Source: Stenotrophomonas indicatrix (GTDB lineage: Bacteria; Pseudomonadota; Gammaproteobacteria; Xanthomonadales; Xanthomonadaceae). Taken from it: a DNA stretch of 64,000 bases. The stretch lies in contig CP168152.1 of the NCBI GenBank assembly GCA_041545745.1, positions 4,090,001 to 4,154,000 of the forward strand, read 5' to 3'. The number at the start of each line of letters is the position of its first letter. Positions within the stretch are counted from its first letter, which is position 1. Below the pieces are notes generated by a model. It was not told the origin of the DNA. It made no database searches and worked only from the letters and a program-made list of their open reading frames with translations. Position numbers and translations under genes: made by a program. Of the stretch, positions 43,288 through 61,646 are shown piece by piece.

Positions 43288-43329
43288 GGCCGGATTATGC
43301 CGTGCTGCACTGCAGCGGATATACTGGCG

Positions 43330-43540
43330 CCCGAATGCAGGAGAGAGGCGCCGCGCTGGCGCCCGCCGAAGGCGCAGGCTCCCATGATCGCTCAGGCCGG
43401 TGGGCTGGAATCCCACCAACCATGCATTCGACTCGCCGAGCTGGAGAGAGGTCACCGGGCATGCCCGGGACGATCCGCCGAAGGGGCACGCGGCTCACGC
43501 CGCTGAACTCTCAGGCAAAAGGACAGCGGGAGCGGCACCG
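43330..43540 (+). promoter_or_regulatory. Tandem glycine riboswitch
   Basis: Two aptamer-like units follow one another. The first has GAGAGAGGCGCC, CCGCCGAAGGCGCAGG and GCTCAGGCC. The second has GGAGAGAGGTCACCGGG, CCGCCGAAGGGGCA and CTCTCAGGCAAAAGGAC. These are the hallmarks of glycine-binding aptamers, and the double arrangement is the classical one. It lies about 80 bases before the TRIC-family gene. The expression platform is not obvious. Confidence 0.9.
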
Positions 43541-55453: not shown

Positions 55454-57840
55454 AGACTCTGTTTGCGCGTGGCGCCGCCTTGTGCGCCCTGTTGTGGCTT
55501 TCACTGCCGGCCTTCGCGCTGGATGAAGAAGATCTGCTGCCGGTGGACCAGGCGTTCGCGCTGACCGCCAGCGCGCCCGAACGTGGCCAGATCCAACTGC
55601 AGTTCAAGATCGCCCCGGGCTATTACCTGTATCGCCACCGCACCACGGTGAAGGCCGATCCGGCCTTCAATGCCGCTGCGCTGCAGATGCCCGCAGGCAA
55701 GAAGCATCACGACGATTTCTTCGGTGAAGTGGAGACCTACCGCGAGCGCCTGCAGGCCACCCTGCCCGGCGCGCCCACCGATGCCGCTGGCACCATCAGC
55801 CTGGAAGTGCGTTACCAGGGCTGCGCCGATGCCGGTGTGTGCTACCCGCCGCAGAAGCGCGTGATGCAGGTAACCCTGCCCGGCGCGGGCGGTGCGGCTG
55901 CCACGCTGCCGACTGCACGCGCCACCGGTGCCAGTGCGTTCAACAACCCGCTGGCTGGCGCCGGCAGTGGCGGTGGCCTGCGGCTGCCGGGCACCAGCAA
56001 CAGCCAGGCGCTGCCGCTGCCGTCGGAACAGGCATTCGGCTTCGATGCCATCGCCAGCGATGGCAACACCCTGTTACTGCGCTTCAGCCCGGCACCGGGC
56101 TATTACCTGTACCGCGACCGCACCTCGCTGAAGCTGGAGGGCGGCGCCGGGGTACTGGCCGACAAGCCCCGCTGGCCGGCGGCGCAGTCGCATCGCGACG
56201 AGCACTTCGGTGATGTGGCGGTCTATTTCAACCAAGTGGAAGTGCCGGTGCCGCTGCGCCGCACCCGCGCCGAGGTGGTCGACAGCACGCTGGTGGTGAC
56301 CTTCCAGGGTTGCCAGACCGATGGCATCTGCTACCCGCCGATGACCCGCCGGGTGAAGCTGTCGATCCCCGCCGGCAAGGCCAGCGCCAGCGGTGATGCC
56401 TCTGCCGCACGCGACGACGTGATCCGCTCGCTGCCGGCTTCGGCCGCTGCCCGCACCCGCGAGGGCGCCAACGGTACGCCGCTGCGCCTGCTTCCGACCG
56501 TGCCCAACGACGCGCCGGCCAACGCCGGTGCTGCCGACGCCAGCAGCGGCGCACGCGATGCCTTCGCCGCCGACGCGCAGCAGGACAATGCACTGCGTAC
56601 CAAGGCCCCCAGCCGCGTACCGAAAACCGACAGCTCGCTGCTATGGGTACTGCTGCTGGCGCTGGGCGGTGGCCTTGTACTGAATCTGATGCCCTGCGTG
56701 CTGCCGATCCTGTCGCTGAAAGTGCTGAGCCTGGCGCAGAGCGGTGAAAGCCCCGAGCGCGCCCGCAGCCACGCCATGTGGTACACGCTGGGCGTGCTGG
56801 TCGCCTTCGCCGTGATCGGCGCGCTGATGGTCGGCCTGCGCATGCTGGGCAATGCGGTCGGCATCGGTTTCCAGCTGCAGCATCCCGGCGTGGTCGCGGC
56901 GTTGGCCTACATCATGTTCGCTGTGGGCCTGAGCCTGTCCGGCGTATTCACCATGGGCGGCGGCATCGGCAACTTCGGCCAGTCGCTGGCGCGACGCAGT
57001 GGCCCGGCCGGCGACTTCTTCACCGGCGTGCTGGCCTGCGTGGTCGGTAGTGCCTGCGTGGGACCGTTCTTCGGCCCGGCGGTGGCCTATGCCTTCGTTG
57101 CACCGCCGGTGGCGGCGATGCTGGTGTTCCTGTTCCTCGGCCTGGGCCTGGCCCTGCCGTTCCTGCTGATCGGCTTCGTGCCGGCGCTGGCCCGTCGCCT
57201 GCCCAAGCCGGGCCAGTGGATGGAAACCCTCAAGCACGTGCTGGCCTTCCCGATGTACGCCGCCGCGTTGTGGCTGCTTTGGGTGCTGGGCAAGCAGCGC
57301 GGCGTGGATGGCATGGCGCTGGCGCTGGGTGGCCTGCTGCTGCTCACCGGCGGTCTGTGGTTGTTCGAGCGCAGCCGCTGGCGCAGCCAGCGCGCGGCCG
57401 GGCTGCTGGGCGTGCTGCTGGTGATCGCCGCGCTGGTACCGGTATGGGGTGTGACCCAGCTGGCACCGCCGGCGCGTGCCGCGCAGGCGAGCAGCGAGAA
57501 CGTGGTGGAGTATTCGCCGCAGATGCTGGACCGCCTGCGCGCCGACAACCGCGTGGTGTTCGTCAACATGACCGCCGACTGGTGCGTGAGCTGCAAGGCC
57601 AACGAACGCGCGGTGCTGTCGCGCCCGGAGTTCAAGGAACTGCTCAAGCGCACCAACGCGGTGTACATGCGCGGCGACTACACCAATGTGGACCCGCAGA
57701 TCACCGCGTTCCTGGATGAGCACAAGGCCGTGGGCGTGCCGCTGTACGTGGTGTACGGCCCGGGCGCACCGCCGACGGTGCTGCCCACCCTGCTGACCCA
57801 GGCGCTGGTGGAAGAAGCGCTGCTGCGCACCGCACGATGA
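55450..57840 (+). CDS. dsbD: Thiol:disulfide interchange protein DsbD with duplicated N-terminal domain
   Basis: DsbD carries electrons from cytoplasmic thioredoxin to periplasmic oxidoreductases. The 796-residue protein starts at TTG 55450 overlapping the cutA stop, with a signal peptide (1-23). It has two alpha domains rather than one (about 28-145 and 195-305, each with PGYYLYR and a C-x5-CYPP motif). The membrane domain follows (about 396-660, with NLMPCVLPI and SACVGPF), then the gamma thioredoxin domain with WCVSC near 710-714. The E. coli protein is about 565 residues; the duplication explains the extra length. Confidence 0.94.
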   Translation: MKTLFARGAALCALLWLSLPAFALDEEDLLPVDQAFALTASAPERGQIQLQFKIAPGYYLYRHRTTVKADPAFNAAALQMPAGKKHHDDFFGEVETYRERLQATLPGAPTDAAGTISLEVRYQGCADAGVCYPPQKRVMQVTLPGAGGAAATLPTARATGASAFNNPLAGAGSGGGLRLPGTSNSQALPLPSEQAFGFDAIASDGNTLLLRFSPAPGYYLYRDRTSLKLEGGAGVLADKPRWPAAQSHRDEHFGDVAVYFNQVEVPVPLRRTRAEVVDSTLVVTFQGCQTDGICYPPMTRRVKLSIPAGKASASGDASAARDDVIRSLPASAAARTREGANGTPLRLLPTVPNDAPANAGAADASSGARDAFAADAQQDNALRTKAPSRVPKTDSSLLWVLLLALGGGLVLNLMPCVLPILSLKVLSLAQSGESPERARSHAMWYTLGVLVAFAVIGALMVGLRMLGNAVGIGFQLQHPGVVAALAYIMFAVGLSLSGVFTMGGGIGNFGQSLARRSGPAGDFFTGVLACVVGSACVGPFFGPAVAYAFVAPPVAAMLVFLFLGLGLALPFLLIGFVPALARRLPKPGQWMETLKHVLAFPMYAAALWLLWVLGKQRGVDGMALALGGLLLLTGGLWLFERSRWRSQRAAGLLGVLLVIAALVPVWGVTQLAPPARAAQASSENVVEYSPQMLDRLRADNRVVFVNMTADWCVSCKANERAVLSRPEFKELLKRTNAVYMRGDYTNVDPQITAFLDEHKAVGVPLYVVYGPGAPPTVLPTLLTQALVEEALLRTAR

Positions 57841-58397
57841 GGTGGCAACGGCCAGCACTGCTGTGGACAGCGGTGCTGGCTGCCGGGCTTGGCCTGTGGG
57901 CCGGCAATCGGCTGACGCCGCCGCCGGCGGCGCAAAACCCAGCGCCTGTTGCCGTATCACCGCCAGCGCTGCCGATGCTGCGCCCCGGTGATCCGCTGCC
58001 GGCGCTGGTCCTTCCCGATGGTGAAGGCAACGCGCAGGATATCCGCGAACGCTTCAAGGGCCGGCCATTGCTGGTCAATGTCTGGGCCAGCTGGTGCGGC
58101 CCCTGTGTGGAAGAAATGCCCGAGCTGGCCCGCTTTGCCGAGGGCCAGGGCACGAGCGGCGTACAGGTGTTGGGCCTGGCGCTGGATACGCCTGACGGCG
58201 TGCGCGACTTCCTGCAGCGGGTGCCAGTGAACTATCTCATAGTGCTCGATACCCCCGGTCCACGCGATGCCAGCGTGCAGTTGGGCAACGCGCAGGGTCT
58301 GCTGCCGTACAGCGTGCTGTTCGATGCGCAGGGCCGGATGGTGAAGGCCAAGCTCGGCCCGTTCGCGCACGGCGAGATCGAAGGCTGGGCGAAGTAG
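57837..58397 (+). CDS. TlpA/DsbE-like membrane-anchored thioredoxin
   Basis: This 186-residue protein has an N-terminal anchor (about 7-23), a Pro/Ala linker and a thioredoxin fold with WCGPC (about 86-90) and the cis-Pro segment GLLPYSVLF. It overlaps dsbD by four bases (ATGA) and is probably a periplasmic partner reduced by DsbD. Confidence 0.92.
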   Translation: MRWQRPALLWTAVLAAGLGLWAGNRLTPPPAAQNPAPVAVSPPALPMLRPGDPLPALVLPDGEGNAQDIRERFKGRPLLVNVWASWCGPCVEEMPELARFAEGQGTSGVQVLGLALDTPDGVRDFLQRVPVNYLIVLDTPGPRDASVQLGNAQGLLPYSVLFDAQGRMVKAKLGPFAHGEIEGWAK

Positions 58398-58606
58398 GGT
58401 CGGCAGGGCTGCGCCCTGCACCTGCAGATGCTTTCAAGCAACAGCAACAGCAACAGCCGAAGCAACGGCAACAGCGGGCTTCCGTGGGATGGCGAGGCGG
58501 TGTCGGAGTGCGGGGACGCCGCAAGTACGTCCCTGTAGGCTTGGCGGCCGCATCCATGCGGCTGACACCCCGCACTCCGACACCGCCCCACCTCTGACAG
58601 ATTTCC
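58397..58606 (-). repeat. Structured repeat element, copy A
   Basis: Read on the minus strand the element starts GGAAATCTGTC. It then has a perfect 20-bp outer stem (arms 58496-58515 and 58568-58587) enclosing a 50-base core. The core contains the palindrome CCGCATGGATGCGG and GGACGTACTTGC. A run of CAACAG-type hexamers (as its complement) and a GC-rich end with GCAGGGCGCAGCC follow. Copy B lies 121 bases away in the opposite direction with the same parts in the same order. The core matches B at about 43 of 50 positions while the outer stem differs. The type of element is not recognised. Confidence 0.8.
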
Positions 58607-58614
58607 ATGATCTG

Positions 58615-58637
58615 GTGGATCCACGCCGTGCGTGGAT
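58615..58637 (+). repeat. SMAG-type palindrome, GTGG head
   Basis: GTGGATCCACGCCGTGCGTGGAT is a variant-headed palindrome between the two structured elements. Confidence 0.75.
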
Positions 58638-58668
58638 GAATCTCTGTCAGATATCGACATTACTCTGG

Positions 58669-58705
58669 GGTCAGATCCGTTTTCCTACGGAAAACGGATC
58701 TGACC
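58669..58705. repeat. Perfect 17-bp palindrome
   Basis: GGTCAGATCCGTTTTCC and its exact complement flank TAC. It lies midway between the two inverted elements, so the 538-base gene-free region is palindromic at more than one scale. Confidence 0.85.
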
Positions 58706-58727
58706 TCATGCCATTCCGACAGATCGC

Positions 58728-58934
58728 GGAAATCTGTCGAAGGCGGGGTGGGTCCGGTCGCGGGGGCGTGAGCCGCATGGATGCGGCGACCGAGCTTACA
58801 TGGACGTACTTGCAGCGGCCCCCGCCACCGGACCCACCCCGCCTCCCCACAGGAAACCAGCTTCTGCTGTTGCTCCGGCCGTTGCCGTTGCCGTTGCCTC
58901 TGCGGGTGCAGGGCGCAGCCTTGCCGGCAAACCC
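58728..58934 (+). repeat. Structured repeat element, copy B
   Basis: The element starts GGAAATCTGTCG, then has a 26-bp outer stem with one mismatch (58742-58767 and 58818-58843). Around 58768-58817 lies the core with AGCCGCATGGATGCGGC and GGACGTACTTGC. Next come GTTGCC hexamers (about 58870-58905) and GTGCAGGGCGCAGCCTTGCCGG. See copy A for the comparison. An open frame crosses it, but its peptide follows the repeat in copy A as well and is probably not a gene. Confidence 0.8.
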
Positions 58935-58961
58935 TCCTTGACCGCAGCGGCCCGGGCCCCG

Positions 58962-58983
58962 GAGAATTACGAGATTAATTCTC
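58962..58983. promoter_or_regulatory. Fur-box-like palindrome
   Basis: GAGAATTA-CGAGAT-TAATTCTC is a perfect 8-bp palindrome in the style of Fur sites (AAT...ATT arms). It lies about 50 bases before the gene for an iron-type flavoreductase, so iron-responsive repression is likely. Confidence 0.7.
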
Positions 58984-59034
58984 ATTTGCTGTTGCGCAGG
59001 ATGCGGGCGGCAGCCTCGACGGCCCTCGATCCCG

Positions 59035-61560
59035 ATGTTCAAGAACGTCTTGTTCCAACTGCACTGGCTGCTGGGCATCAGCGCTGGTGCCATCCTGGCC
59101 GTGATGGGCCTGAGCGGTGCAGTCCTGTCGTTCGAGGATGAACTGCTGCGCGCGGCCAATCCCGGCTTCGCCGAGATCGCCGAGCATCATGCCGACAACC
59201 AGCAGCCGCTCGCCTTGAGCGAGCTGGTGCCGTTGCTGCAGGCAGGTAGCGAGCGATCGCTGCAGCGCCTGCGGGTGGATGCCAGCGGCCAGCGTCCATC
59301 GGTGGCACGCTTTGCCGGCGGCAAGGACCACTGGGTCTATTTCGACCCCTACAGCGGCGCGCGCTTCAGCGCGCTGCGTGGACAGGCCTTCTTCGATTTC
59401 GTAGAGGACCTGCACCGCCACATGGTCGCCGGCGAACGGGGCTCGTGGATCACCGGCAGCTGTGCGATCGCCTTGCTGTTCTTCACCCTGTCCGGGCTGT
59501 ACCTGCGCTGGCCACGCCGCTGGTGGCACTGGCGCAGCTGGCTGGTGGTGGAATGGGCACGCAAGGGCCGAGGCTTCCTGTGGAGCCTGCATTCGGTGAT
59601 CGGCACCTGGGTGCTGCTGATCTACCTGATGAGCGCACTGACCGGGTTGTGGTGGTCGTTCGACTGGTACCGCAACGGGCTGACCCAGCTGCTGGGTGTC
59701 GCGCCCCCCGCCAAGCACAAACTCGCCACCGATCTGTCCCTCGATCTGAACAACGTCGAGGCCACGTTGTATGCGCTGCCCGGTGTGCGCCAGGGCTTCA
59801 TCGACCTGCGCCTGCCGGAGAAGCCCGGTCAAGCACTCAATGTGCGGGTGATGTCGGCGGATCCCGCGCAGCGCGGCGGCCACCATGATCGTGCGCACGA
59901 CCTGCTGCAGCTCGACCCGGCCACCGGCGCGGTTCTCGACGCGCGCCCGTACGCACGCCAGGGTGCCGGCGGCCAGCTCACCACCAGCATGTTCGCCCTG
60001 CACTCGGGCAGCTTCTTCGGCATGCCCGGACGCATCGTGGTGATGCTCAGCAGCCTGGGCATGTGTCTGTTCTTCGTCACCGGTTGGCTGCTGTACCTGG
60101 ACCGCCGCCGCAGCCAGCGCGCCGCGCGCGCGCTGCGGCAGACCGTTCCGGCAGCAGCACTCCACGCCGGGGGCATACCGTGGCTGGTGGTGCATGCCAG
60201 CCAGAGCGGCCTGGCCGAACAGTTGGCCTGGCGTGCGGCGGCACAGCTGCAGGCGGCCGGCCACGGGGTGCAGGTACTGCCGCTTGCGCGTGTGACTGCC
60301 TCGCAGCTGCAGGCCACCACCCAAGCGCTGCTGGTACTCAGCACCTTCGGTGATGGCGAACCACCGGACAATGCACGGCGCAGCGCACGCCAGTTGCTGG
60401 CACAGCATCCGGACCTTTCCGGGCTGCGTTACGGCATGCTCGCGCTGGGTGACCACCAGTACGCGCAGTTCTGCGGGTTCGGCATCCAGATCGATGACTG
60501 GTTGACGCGCTCGGGCGCGCAGCCGCTGTTCGACCGCATCGACGTCGATGCCGCTTCGGTGGTGGCACTGCGCCAATGGCAGCTGCAGTTGGCTGGGCTG
60601 ACCGGCATCGACACCGATGACAGCGTGCTGCCGGCAGCCACGGTGATGCACGACTGGCGCCTGCTCGGCCGCACCCTGCTCAACGCCGGCAGCGTCGGTG
60701 GCCCGATCTGGAAGATCCGCCTGGCAGCGCCGGCCGATGTTGATTGGCAGGCCGGCGACATTCTGCACATCGCACCACGTCACGACGCGCTGCACGTACA
60801 CGCGATACTTCGGGCGCATGGTCTGGATCCACTGCAACCGATGCTGATCGACGGTGGCACGAAAACGCTGCTGGAACTGGCCAGCGAACGCGTGCTGCCC
60901 GAACCTGGCAGTGCATTGCAGGTGCAGGATGCAGGCCTATGGTTGTCAGGCCTGCCGTCACTGCCGGGGCGTGAATATTCCATCGCCTCATGCGCCGCCG
61001 ATGGCGAGGTGGAACTGGTGGTGCGGCTGGTCCACGACACAGCAGGTCGCGCGGGCCTGGGTTCGGGCTGGCTGGCCCTGCATGCGCCTACGGGTGGTGC
61101 AGTTGCCGCCCGCGTGCATCGCAACCCGGGCTTCCATCGGCGGCCAGGCGCGCCGATGGTGCTGATCGGCAACGGCACCGGCATCGCCGGCCTGCGCAGC
61201 CTGCTGCGCGAAGCCGCGCATCACGGCGAGCACGGCCATTGGCTGCTGTTCGGCGAGCGTCAGCGCGCGCACGATTTCCTGTTCGCCGACGAGATCATCC
61301 GGTGGCAGGCTGACGGGCATCTGCTGCGTTTGGATCAGGCCTATTCGCGTGATGTGGACGATGGCAGCTACGTACAGCATCGACTGCGCGCTGCGACAGA
61401 TGAACTGCAGGCGTGGTTGGCACGAGGCGCAGTGATCCATGTGTGTGGATCGCTGCACGGCATGGCCGAAGGCGTGGACCAGGTGCTGCGCGAGGCACTG
61501 GGCGATGAAATGGTGGAACTGCTACTGGAGAACGGGCGCTACCGGCGCGACGTGTATTGA
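59035..61560 (+). CDS. PepSY membrane protein fused to a flavodoxin/ferredoxin-reductase-like module
   Basis: In this 841-residue protein the first 360 residues are a PepSY_TM (PiuB-like) unit with four membrane helices and conserved His residues (HWLLG, DLHRHMVAG, LWSLHSVIG, ALHSGSFFG). Residues about 383-520 are flavodoxin-like (LVVHASQSGLAEQLA; STFGDGEPPDNA). The rest (about 545-841) is a sulfite-reductase-flavoprotein-like FAD/NADPH unit with REYSIASC, IGNGTGIAGLRS and VCGSLHGMAEGV. It probably reduces ferric siderophores or haem iron at the inner membrane with NADPH electrons. A Fur-like box precedes it. Confidence 0.88.
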   Translation: MFKNVLFQLHWLLGISAGAILAVMGLSGAVLSFEDELLRAANPGFAEIAEHHADNQQPLALSELVPLLQAGSERSLQRLRVDASGQRPSVARFAGGKDHWVYFDPYSGARFSALRGQAFFDFVEDLHRHMVAGERGSWITGSCAIALLFFTLSGLYLRWPRRWWHWRSWLVVEWARKGRGFLWSLHSVIGTWVLLIYLMSALTGLWWSFDWYRNGLTQLLGVAPPAKHKLATDLSLDLNNVEATLYALPGVRQGFIDLRLPEKPGQALNVRVMSADPAQRGGHHDRAHDLLQLDPATGAVLDARPYARQGAGGQLTTSMFALHSGSFFGMPGRIVVMLSSLGMCLFFVTGWLLYLDRRRSQRAARALRQTVPAAALHAGGIPWLVVHASQSGLAEQLAWRAAAQLQAAGHGVQVLPLARVTASQLQATTQALLVLSTFGDGEPPDNARRSARQLLAQHPDLSGLRYGMLALGDHQYAQFCGFGIQIDDWLTRSGAQPLFDRIDVDAASVVALRQWQLQLAGLTGIDTDDSVLPAATVMHDWRLLGRTLLNAGSVGGPIWKIRLAAPADVDWQAGDILHIAPRHDALHVHAILRAHGLDPLQPMLIDGGTKTLLELASERVLPEPGSALQVQDAGLWLSGLPSLPGREYSIASCAADGEVELVVRLVHDTAGRAGLGSGWLALHAPTGGAVAARVHRNPGFHRRPGAPMVLIGNGTGIAGLRSLLREAAHHGEHGHWLLFGERQRAHDFLFADEIIRWQADGHLLRLDQAYSRDVDDGSYVQHRLRAATDELQAWLARGAVIHVCGSLHGMAEGVDQVLREALGDEMVELLLENGRYRRDVY

Positions 61561-61566
61561 GTCCGT

Positions 61567-61632
61567 TCGCCGGGCATGGCCCGGCGCTACCCATCATGGG
61601 TTTCAACGGTAGCGCCGGGCCATGCCCGGCGA
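61567..61632. repeat. Inverted SMAG dimer
   Basis: Two GTAG-headed palindromes face each other: 61567-61591 is the exact complement of 61608-61632, separated by 16 bases. Each arm is itself a palindrome. It lies between convergent genes and probably ends both transcripts. Confidence 0.88.
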
Positions 61633-61646
61633 AGGCGATCAGGCCA

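Follow-up and report, generated by a model that had tools for sequence, protein, structure and literature searches.

The intergenic region 58398-59034 of the analysed window (the whole stretch of 64,000 nt from Stenotrophomonas indicatrix, contig CP168152.1) contains two inverted copies, A and B, of one element, whose leads lie face-to-face and whose tails point toward the flanking genes. Both fold as a three-way junction: two hairpins (P2 and P3) with the hexaloop ANGGAN are carried by a long outer stem (P1) that is free in sequence and near-perfect in pairing. Judging from sequence comparisons, the element is best read as a dispersed CsrA/RsmA-binding RNA module of intergenic regions, a reading to which we assign a probability of roughly 0.55. 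The parts of the site are as follows (bit scores are those of a covariance model, which gave no other match in the window at E <= 1):

57837-58397, plus strand: upstream gene, thioredoxin-like (Redoxin)
58398-58485, minus strand: tail of A, with parts as in the tail of B; begins immediately past the upstream gene's stop codon
58486-58596, minus strand: copy A, three-way-junction hairpin (90.5 bits; model match 58501-58582)
58491-58515 and 58568-58592, minus strand: arms of the outer stem of A (25 nt, 92% complementary)
58529-58534, minus strand: loop 2 of A, AGGGAC, inside TACAGGGACGTA
58552-58557, minus strand: loop 1 of A, ATGGAT
overlapping 58593-58604, minus strand: lead of A, counterpart of the lead of B by A/B similarity
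58609-58716, no strand: spacer between the leads of A and B, holding two other palindromes
within 58609-58716: spacer palindrome GGATCCACGCCGTGCGTGGAT
58666-58708: spacer inverted repeat with 20-nt arms
58717-58739, plus strand: lead of B, small inverted repeat CGACAGAT...ATCTGTCG
58738-58848, plus strand: copy B, three-way-junction hairpin (82.4 bits; model match 58752-58833)
58741-58767 and 58818-58844, plus strand: arms of the outer stem of B (27 nt, 96% complementary)
58777-58782, plus strand: loop 1 of B, ATGGAT
58800-58805, plus strand: loop 2 of B, ATGGAC, inside TACATGGACGTA
58845-58934, plus strand: tail of B, with GTTGCC hexamers and the GCAGGGCGCAGCC end
59035-61560, plus strand: downstream gene with PepSY_TM, flavodoxin and NAD-binding domains

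Copies A (minus) and B (plus) have lead, core, GTTGCN hexamers and tail in common. A repeat search returned them as a 136-nt inverted repeat with 74% complementarity, and the tail ends agree over 31 nt at 90%. The original prediction was correct in the coordinates, orientation and order of parts of the pair. It had also described outer stems that differ in sequence and nevertheless pair, which holds for both copies, although its length of 20 bp for one of them was too low. The predicted fold of each hairpin is better than 200 of 200 shuffled sequences (z -6.4 and -6.3), and the gap between the two GGAs is 20 nt in both.

The fold was also recovered from pooled copies of the element. Without any structure being supplied, mutual information over 70 foreign and 72 own copies (142 in all, in fixed register) placed 29 of the 45 strongest pairs in P1, P2 and P3. 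In alignment A3, which comprises 50 of the 96 pooled sequences and represents many genera, paired cells amounted to 94.5% (62.9 after shuffling), changes on both sides were seen at 25 of the 30 pairs, including all 15 pairs of P1, and the covariation score was 0.774 versus 0.172 for shuffled and 0.11-0.14 for slid alignments. The pooled foreign sets omit copies in which the two-loop spacing differs from 34 nt, as well as five loci with no clear long stem (L112, L116, L206, L207 and L212). Selection on structure, which the original prediction had proposed from A and B alone and for which it had looked to covariation, is supported by these values and by the pairing of orthologous arms (see below).

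The constant top of P3 in the 50-sequence alignment is due to selection of the copies by that very pattern. Exact-core copies make up 62 of the 105 unique own matches; in 37 full-length own copies without the exact core, upper P3 is TCC/GGA (15), CCC/GGG (15) or TAC/GTA (7), and loop 2 is still ANGGAY in 36 of the 37. Among all 98 unique full-length own copies, loop 1 reads ANGGAT without exception and loop 2 reads ANGGAY in 95, the other three being AACGAC (two) and ATGGAA (one). P2 carries GA in 36 and AG in 42 of the 142 copies, and most of the others are Watson-Crick at this place; tandem G-A is present in B, not in A.

In the genome, 72 occurrences of the exact core, CATGGATG-N19-GACGTACTTGC, were counted (32 forward, 40 reverse), whereas the reversed control gave 0. 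Covariance model R1, built from 50 sequences, gave at least 150 matches, and 149 of the 150 scored reached >= 74.9 bits. Fifty pairs of neighbours less than 600 bp apart, spaced by 173-381 bp, account for 99 of these 150 copies; 49 pairs are minus-then-plus, none is plus-then-minus, and one is minus-minus, so that the A/B pair is the typical unit. High copy number, intergenic location and this inverted pairing would also suit a DNA-level repeat of the REP/BIME style, whose hairpins at gene ends extrude and bind DNA proteins and which is possibly spread by a single-strand enzyme. We consider this explanation rather unlikely, and the same holds for its corollary, in which the equality of the arms would result from hairpin-templated repair instead of selection on RNA.

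According to a home-made gene caller, none of the 72 exact-core copies lies inside a gene; 28 are located between convergent, 37 between tandem, and 7 between divergent genes. Of 86 foreign copies, 18 were placed inside an open frame by a rough ORF caller, nine of these in the GC-rich genome G149, and these frames are presumably spurious. The orientation of the copies relative to adjacent genes varies. Location at gene ends (65 of the 72 exact-core copies are outside divergent intervals) and very stable stems could alternatively mean a plain transcription terminator or mRNA-end stabiliser serving both neighbours, with the loops kept for folding only. This appears improbable: the vicinity of A and B yielded no terminator-like site, and hairpins followed by a U-tract are absent from A and B, with few T-runs elsewhere. 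An A-run of at least four precedes the stem in 8% and a T-run follows it in 5% of 63 foreign copies, the respective values for the 72 own copies being 8% for an A-run and 0%; moreover, folding alone does not require A.GGA in both loops.

The core is conserved, while the arms drift. Between copies within each of four genomes (G149, G298, G237, and G309), identity is 0.84-0.90 in the core, 0.72-0.85 in P2, and 0.33-0.46 in the outer arms, compared with 0.24-0.27 in the far flanks. In fixed register the arms pair at 92% in G149 and G298; the lower values of G237 and G309 (73-76%) reflect register shifts caused by indels. A stem of 49 perfect pairs occurs in one G298 copy. The arms are family-like (0.70-0.89) in G308 and G143. 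Such a contrast between core and arms could arise if a 62-nt core were mobile and its arms were made anew at each insertion via inverted duplication of the target, and core-less perfect inverted repeats are indeed few (4 versus 41 with the core, in 157 kb of loci selected by the core). Against this, at one orthologous site arm identity has fallen to 58%, while the core remains 94% identical and the arms 97% paired; paired arms that simply drift therefore suffice, and arms made by insertion are unnecessary. In addition, no one-armed empty site was found, the genera of G298, G149, and G309 being represented by 2, 1, and 1 genomes, and we regard the mobile core as very improbable.

The orthologous site lies between convergent genes in another genus (that of G458), in which 100 genomes were searched, 99 matched, and 30 loci were fetched. 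The element is present in 27 of the 30 loci, forward in 18 and inverted in 9, and absent from 3. This variation of orientation between species at one site speaks for a REP/BIME-style repeat, and well-supported branches of the flanking-gene tree require at least five changes of the 'inverted' label. In three loci (L443-L445), the inverted copy is accompanied by what seems to be the decayed remnant of a forward copy's right half, and this would fit alternate loss from an old inverted pair. The clean orthologous set consists of 24 copies chosen by their neighbour genes, with L432, L454, and L455 omitted for another length or an interrupted core. Core identity in this set is 0.943 and arm identity 0.585. 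Nevertheless, 631 of the 648 arm pairs are standard (611 Watson-Crick and 20 G-U), 4 are A-C, and 13 are other; the outer stems of other copies thus pair as the original prediction implied. Arms of 28 and of 29 nt both remain paired, i.e., the change of length was matched on both sides, as a REP/BIME-style repeat would also allow. All 24 copies have A.GGA in both loops; variation is confined to loop positions 2 and 6 (T21/G3 and T23/G1, respectively, in loop 1; G20/C3/T1 and C14/T6/G3/A1 in loop 2).

Wobble pairs may distinguish the two strands. With strand-symmetric mutation, transitions from a standard pair give G-U and A-C equally, but of the two an RNA tolerates G-U. Over the 15 inner pairs of P1, G-U and A-C were found at 31:3 in 98 own copies and at 35:8 in foreign ones; counted by copy, the figures are 27 versus 2 (own) and 20 versus 4 (foreign). 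Any copy in which P1 had over four non-pairs was omitted here. The ratio is 20:4 in the outer stem of the orthologous set; when longer stems are counted, it is 52:18 (72 own copies) and 107:38 (86 foreign copies). As copies are related and raw counts are non-independent, it was also taken over distinct contexts (65:23). P2 shows no excess of G-U over A-C (2:10 own, 11:8 foreign), and P3 has too few wobbles (0:1 and 6:3). The excess in the outer stem favours selection of the GGA-bearing strand as RNA; seen in all sets counted, it is unexpected for a cruciform acting on both strands. Also at odds with a REP/BIME-style repeat, the conserved part is the loops and not the feet of the stem, and the loops match a known RNA-binding protein. 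The RNA half of the original prediction, which had left the choice between a structured RNA and a small mobile element, is favoured by both the outer-stem G-U excess, which P2 lacks, and the match of the loops to the CsrA consensus.

Since the A.GGA fixed in both loops is the CsrA/RsmA consensus, CsrA/RsmA is the candidate ligand. The SELEX consensus of CsrA is RUACARGGAUGU, mostly in six-nt loops with AC and GU paired, and one dimer bridges sites 10-63 nt apart with an optimum above 18 nt (PMC7652899). The GGA hexaloops of A and B fit ANGGAN, and their 20-nt gap falls within this range. In the proposed mechanism, the long outer stem of free sequence would present the two ANGGAN hairpins; the module would be transcribed by read-through from the flanking genes, between convergent genes from either side; and one CsrA/RsmA dimer would bind both loops. 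Many copies could then buffer free CsrA as a sponge dispersed over transcript ends, or, alternatively, CsrA might control the stability of the transcripts bearing the module. It is possible, albeit tentative, that hundreds of intergenic paired CsrA/RsmA sites set the level of free CsrA through read-through transcription. Equally tentatively, such sites could act besides or instead of the few Csr/Rsm RNAs, as inverted twins whose stems may drift so long as they stay paired. In Xanthomonas, an RNA derived from a 3'-UTR sequesters RsmA (PMC7694677). If RsmA binds these hairpins, free RsmA would depend on hundreds of scattered sites, and models of the Csr/Rsm switch would change.

Several observations speak against the CsrA/RsmA reading. 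First, P2 is longer than the stems of SELEX hairpins, which mostly have no more than four contiguous pairs (PMC7652899). Second, the orientation to neighbour genes is not fixed, and P2 has no G-U excess. Third, for a transcript carrying both copies, the prediction is that A, being antisense, pairs with the full length of B (-398 kcal/mol, z -23), and this pairing would hide the loops unless local folding precedes it. The csrA gene is present in the genome, but it was also found in 235 of 274 genomes of the class and in 29 of the 31 pattern-positive ones; csrA being so common, its co-occurrence with the element does not discriminate.

TwoAYGGAY has been listed since 2010 as an RNA of unknown function and has been proposed as a CsrA binder. 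This Rfam family (RF01731, clan CL00106) is close to the element and is its closest known family; the original prediction did not recognise the family. A and B have no match to the RF01731 model at E <= 10, the Rfam gathering cut-off of 43 bits not being reached. TwoAYGGAY is catalogued as a probable RNA, with human gut, gamma-Proteobacteria, and Clostridiales as its sources (PMC2864571); subsequent work related it to the CsrA motif, suggested RNAs that bind CsrA, and noted tandem G-A in a stem (PMC4333381). As in the RF01731 model alignment, the element has an unconserved long outer stem and two hairpins with AYGGAY loops, strictly so in B (ATGGAT, ATGGAC) and nearly so in A (ATGGAT, AGGGAC). 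Tandem G-A is seen in B and many own copies, whereas A and a large share of the other copies lack it. It differs in its second loop (ANGGAY, AGGGAC in A), in a short P3 with a bulge on the 3' side, and in its inverted pairs and at least 150 copies per genome. Among ten genomes, RF01731 exceeded the cut-off in two, with 11 matches in G245 and one own copy; the latter (43.6 bits) is the inverted partner of another copy, and 16 further own matches are below the cut-off. One control genome gave a signal below the cut-off, as did one of 20 foreign loci (L121, 36.8 bits). Rfam searches of the window (gathering score) and of 58385-58960 (E <= 10) yielded for the element no more than models of microRNA and other long hairpins; these scored well under their cut-offs and were rejected.

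The CsrA proposal for a TwoAYGGAY-type fold is already published and is not new. Within the reach of our searches, the novelty lies in how many copies there are, their arrangement in pairs, the evidence on the strand, and the constraint seen on the loops at an orthologous site. The published texts searched, mostly without subscription papers, hold no report of this repeat family. A relative of TwoAYGGAY with at least 150 copies in one genome and occurrence in many genera makes a long-standing question directly testable.

Other known families resemble the element in part. CsrB/CsrC, RsmX/Y/Z, and RsmU also have GGA in hairpin loops, and RsmU originates from a 3'-UTR (PMC7694677); these are, however, single genes with several GGA hairpins, and the element is a two-site unit scattered over the genome. 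REP/BIME (RAYT-associated palindromes), described as repeats of 20-40 bp with a conserved end (PMC3733652), are likewise high-copy, intergenic, palindromic, and of alternating orientation, but the element has free stem sequence and conserved loops, its outer-stem identity being near background in four genomes. Other intergenic repeats also prefer convergent gene ends, in favour of a REP/BIME-style origin: R0/R2-type repeats of Pseudomonas fluorescens are intergenic hairpins with this bias, but in their description the inverted repeats are identical and the core varies, opposite to the element (PMC2718517).

Further copies in related genomes, anticipated by the original prediction, were found. 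The exact core is present in 22 of 36 other genomes of the genus and in none of 24 genomes from other families of the order. A looser two-loop pattern matched 31 of 274 genomes of the class (27 of 221 genera; control 0), with up to 101 copies per genome; 6 of 30 foreign loci inspected were judged not to be the element (L093, L105, L106, L112, L115, and L117). R1, run under stricter filters with no more than 11 candidates scored per genome, had matches in 28 of the 398 genomes in a sample of the phylum. Every one of the 28 belongs to the class of the window, which accounts for 137 of the 398 by a hand count on apparently the same sample list. The core is presumably frequent in marine gammaproteobacteria. 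A plasmid search with three cores yielded a single match of 25 nt, located on a Halomonas replicon of 1.8 Mb (model score 57 bits), and a phage search with two cores yielded none. One copy was found among viral contigs (L330, 6213-6296, an IMG/VR contig classed as viral), where it may represent host flank.

At the window site, 80 loci were fetched via the upstream gene, and 39 of them were searched with R1; the titled records among those fetched are Stenotrophomonas maltophilia and relatives. Both A and B are present in four loci (L126, L127, L129, and L130), B alone in two (L132 and L134), and B with an interrupted or partial A in two (L133 and L137); in L131, A is truncated by the contig end. 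The other 30 loci gave no match; among these, L124, L136, and L138 retain both flanking genes, while L125 and L128 stop early. The element is thus patchy between close species at this site. The mobile half of the original prediction agrees with this patchiness and with the many copies, but less well with the presence in 27 of 30 loci in the other genus and with the near absence from plasmids, phages, and viral contigs.

Several variant layouts were noticed. P3 is interrupted at about the same place in L455 and in L133/L137, i.e., in two distant genera, by a structured insert with the outline (by eye) GGTGA...AGCGC...GAACG...GGACCCCG.AGGGGG; it had no Rfam match and may be a further element in its own right or mark an extended subtype. 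Nine loci of G539 and G649 (L315, L316, L318-L324) contain a subtype with a longer stretch between the loops (GGATGAGATTCATATC...), found with a pattern gap of 12-24 nt after GGATG, compared with ~8 nt in the standard form; both genomes match the covariance model too. L425 (G512:C1:93900-96000) carries six tandem copies about 227 nt apart in a single orientation. L105 (G287:C17) contains tandem 52-nt units with GGCATGGATGCC and GTACAGGGATGTAC hairpins, a possible further GGA-loop array of different layout.

Other features were seen in the window itself. Around A and B, one promoter-like match (58938-58967) was found, downstream of B. A palindrome, GAGAATTA...TAATTCTC, at 58962-58983, immediately upstream of the PepSY-flavodoxin gene, is similar to what we take to be an iron-regulator box. 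Past this gene is a 26-nt perfect inverted repeat (61566-61633), which, like the spacer repeat at 58666-58708, presumably resembles species-typical REP elements. Tandem glycine riboswitch aptamers are located at 43328-43536.
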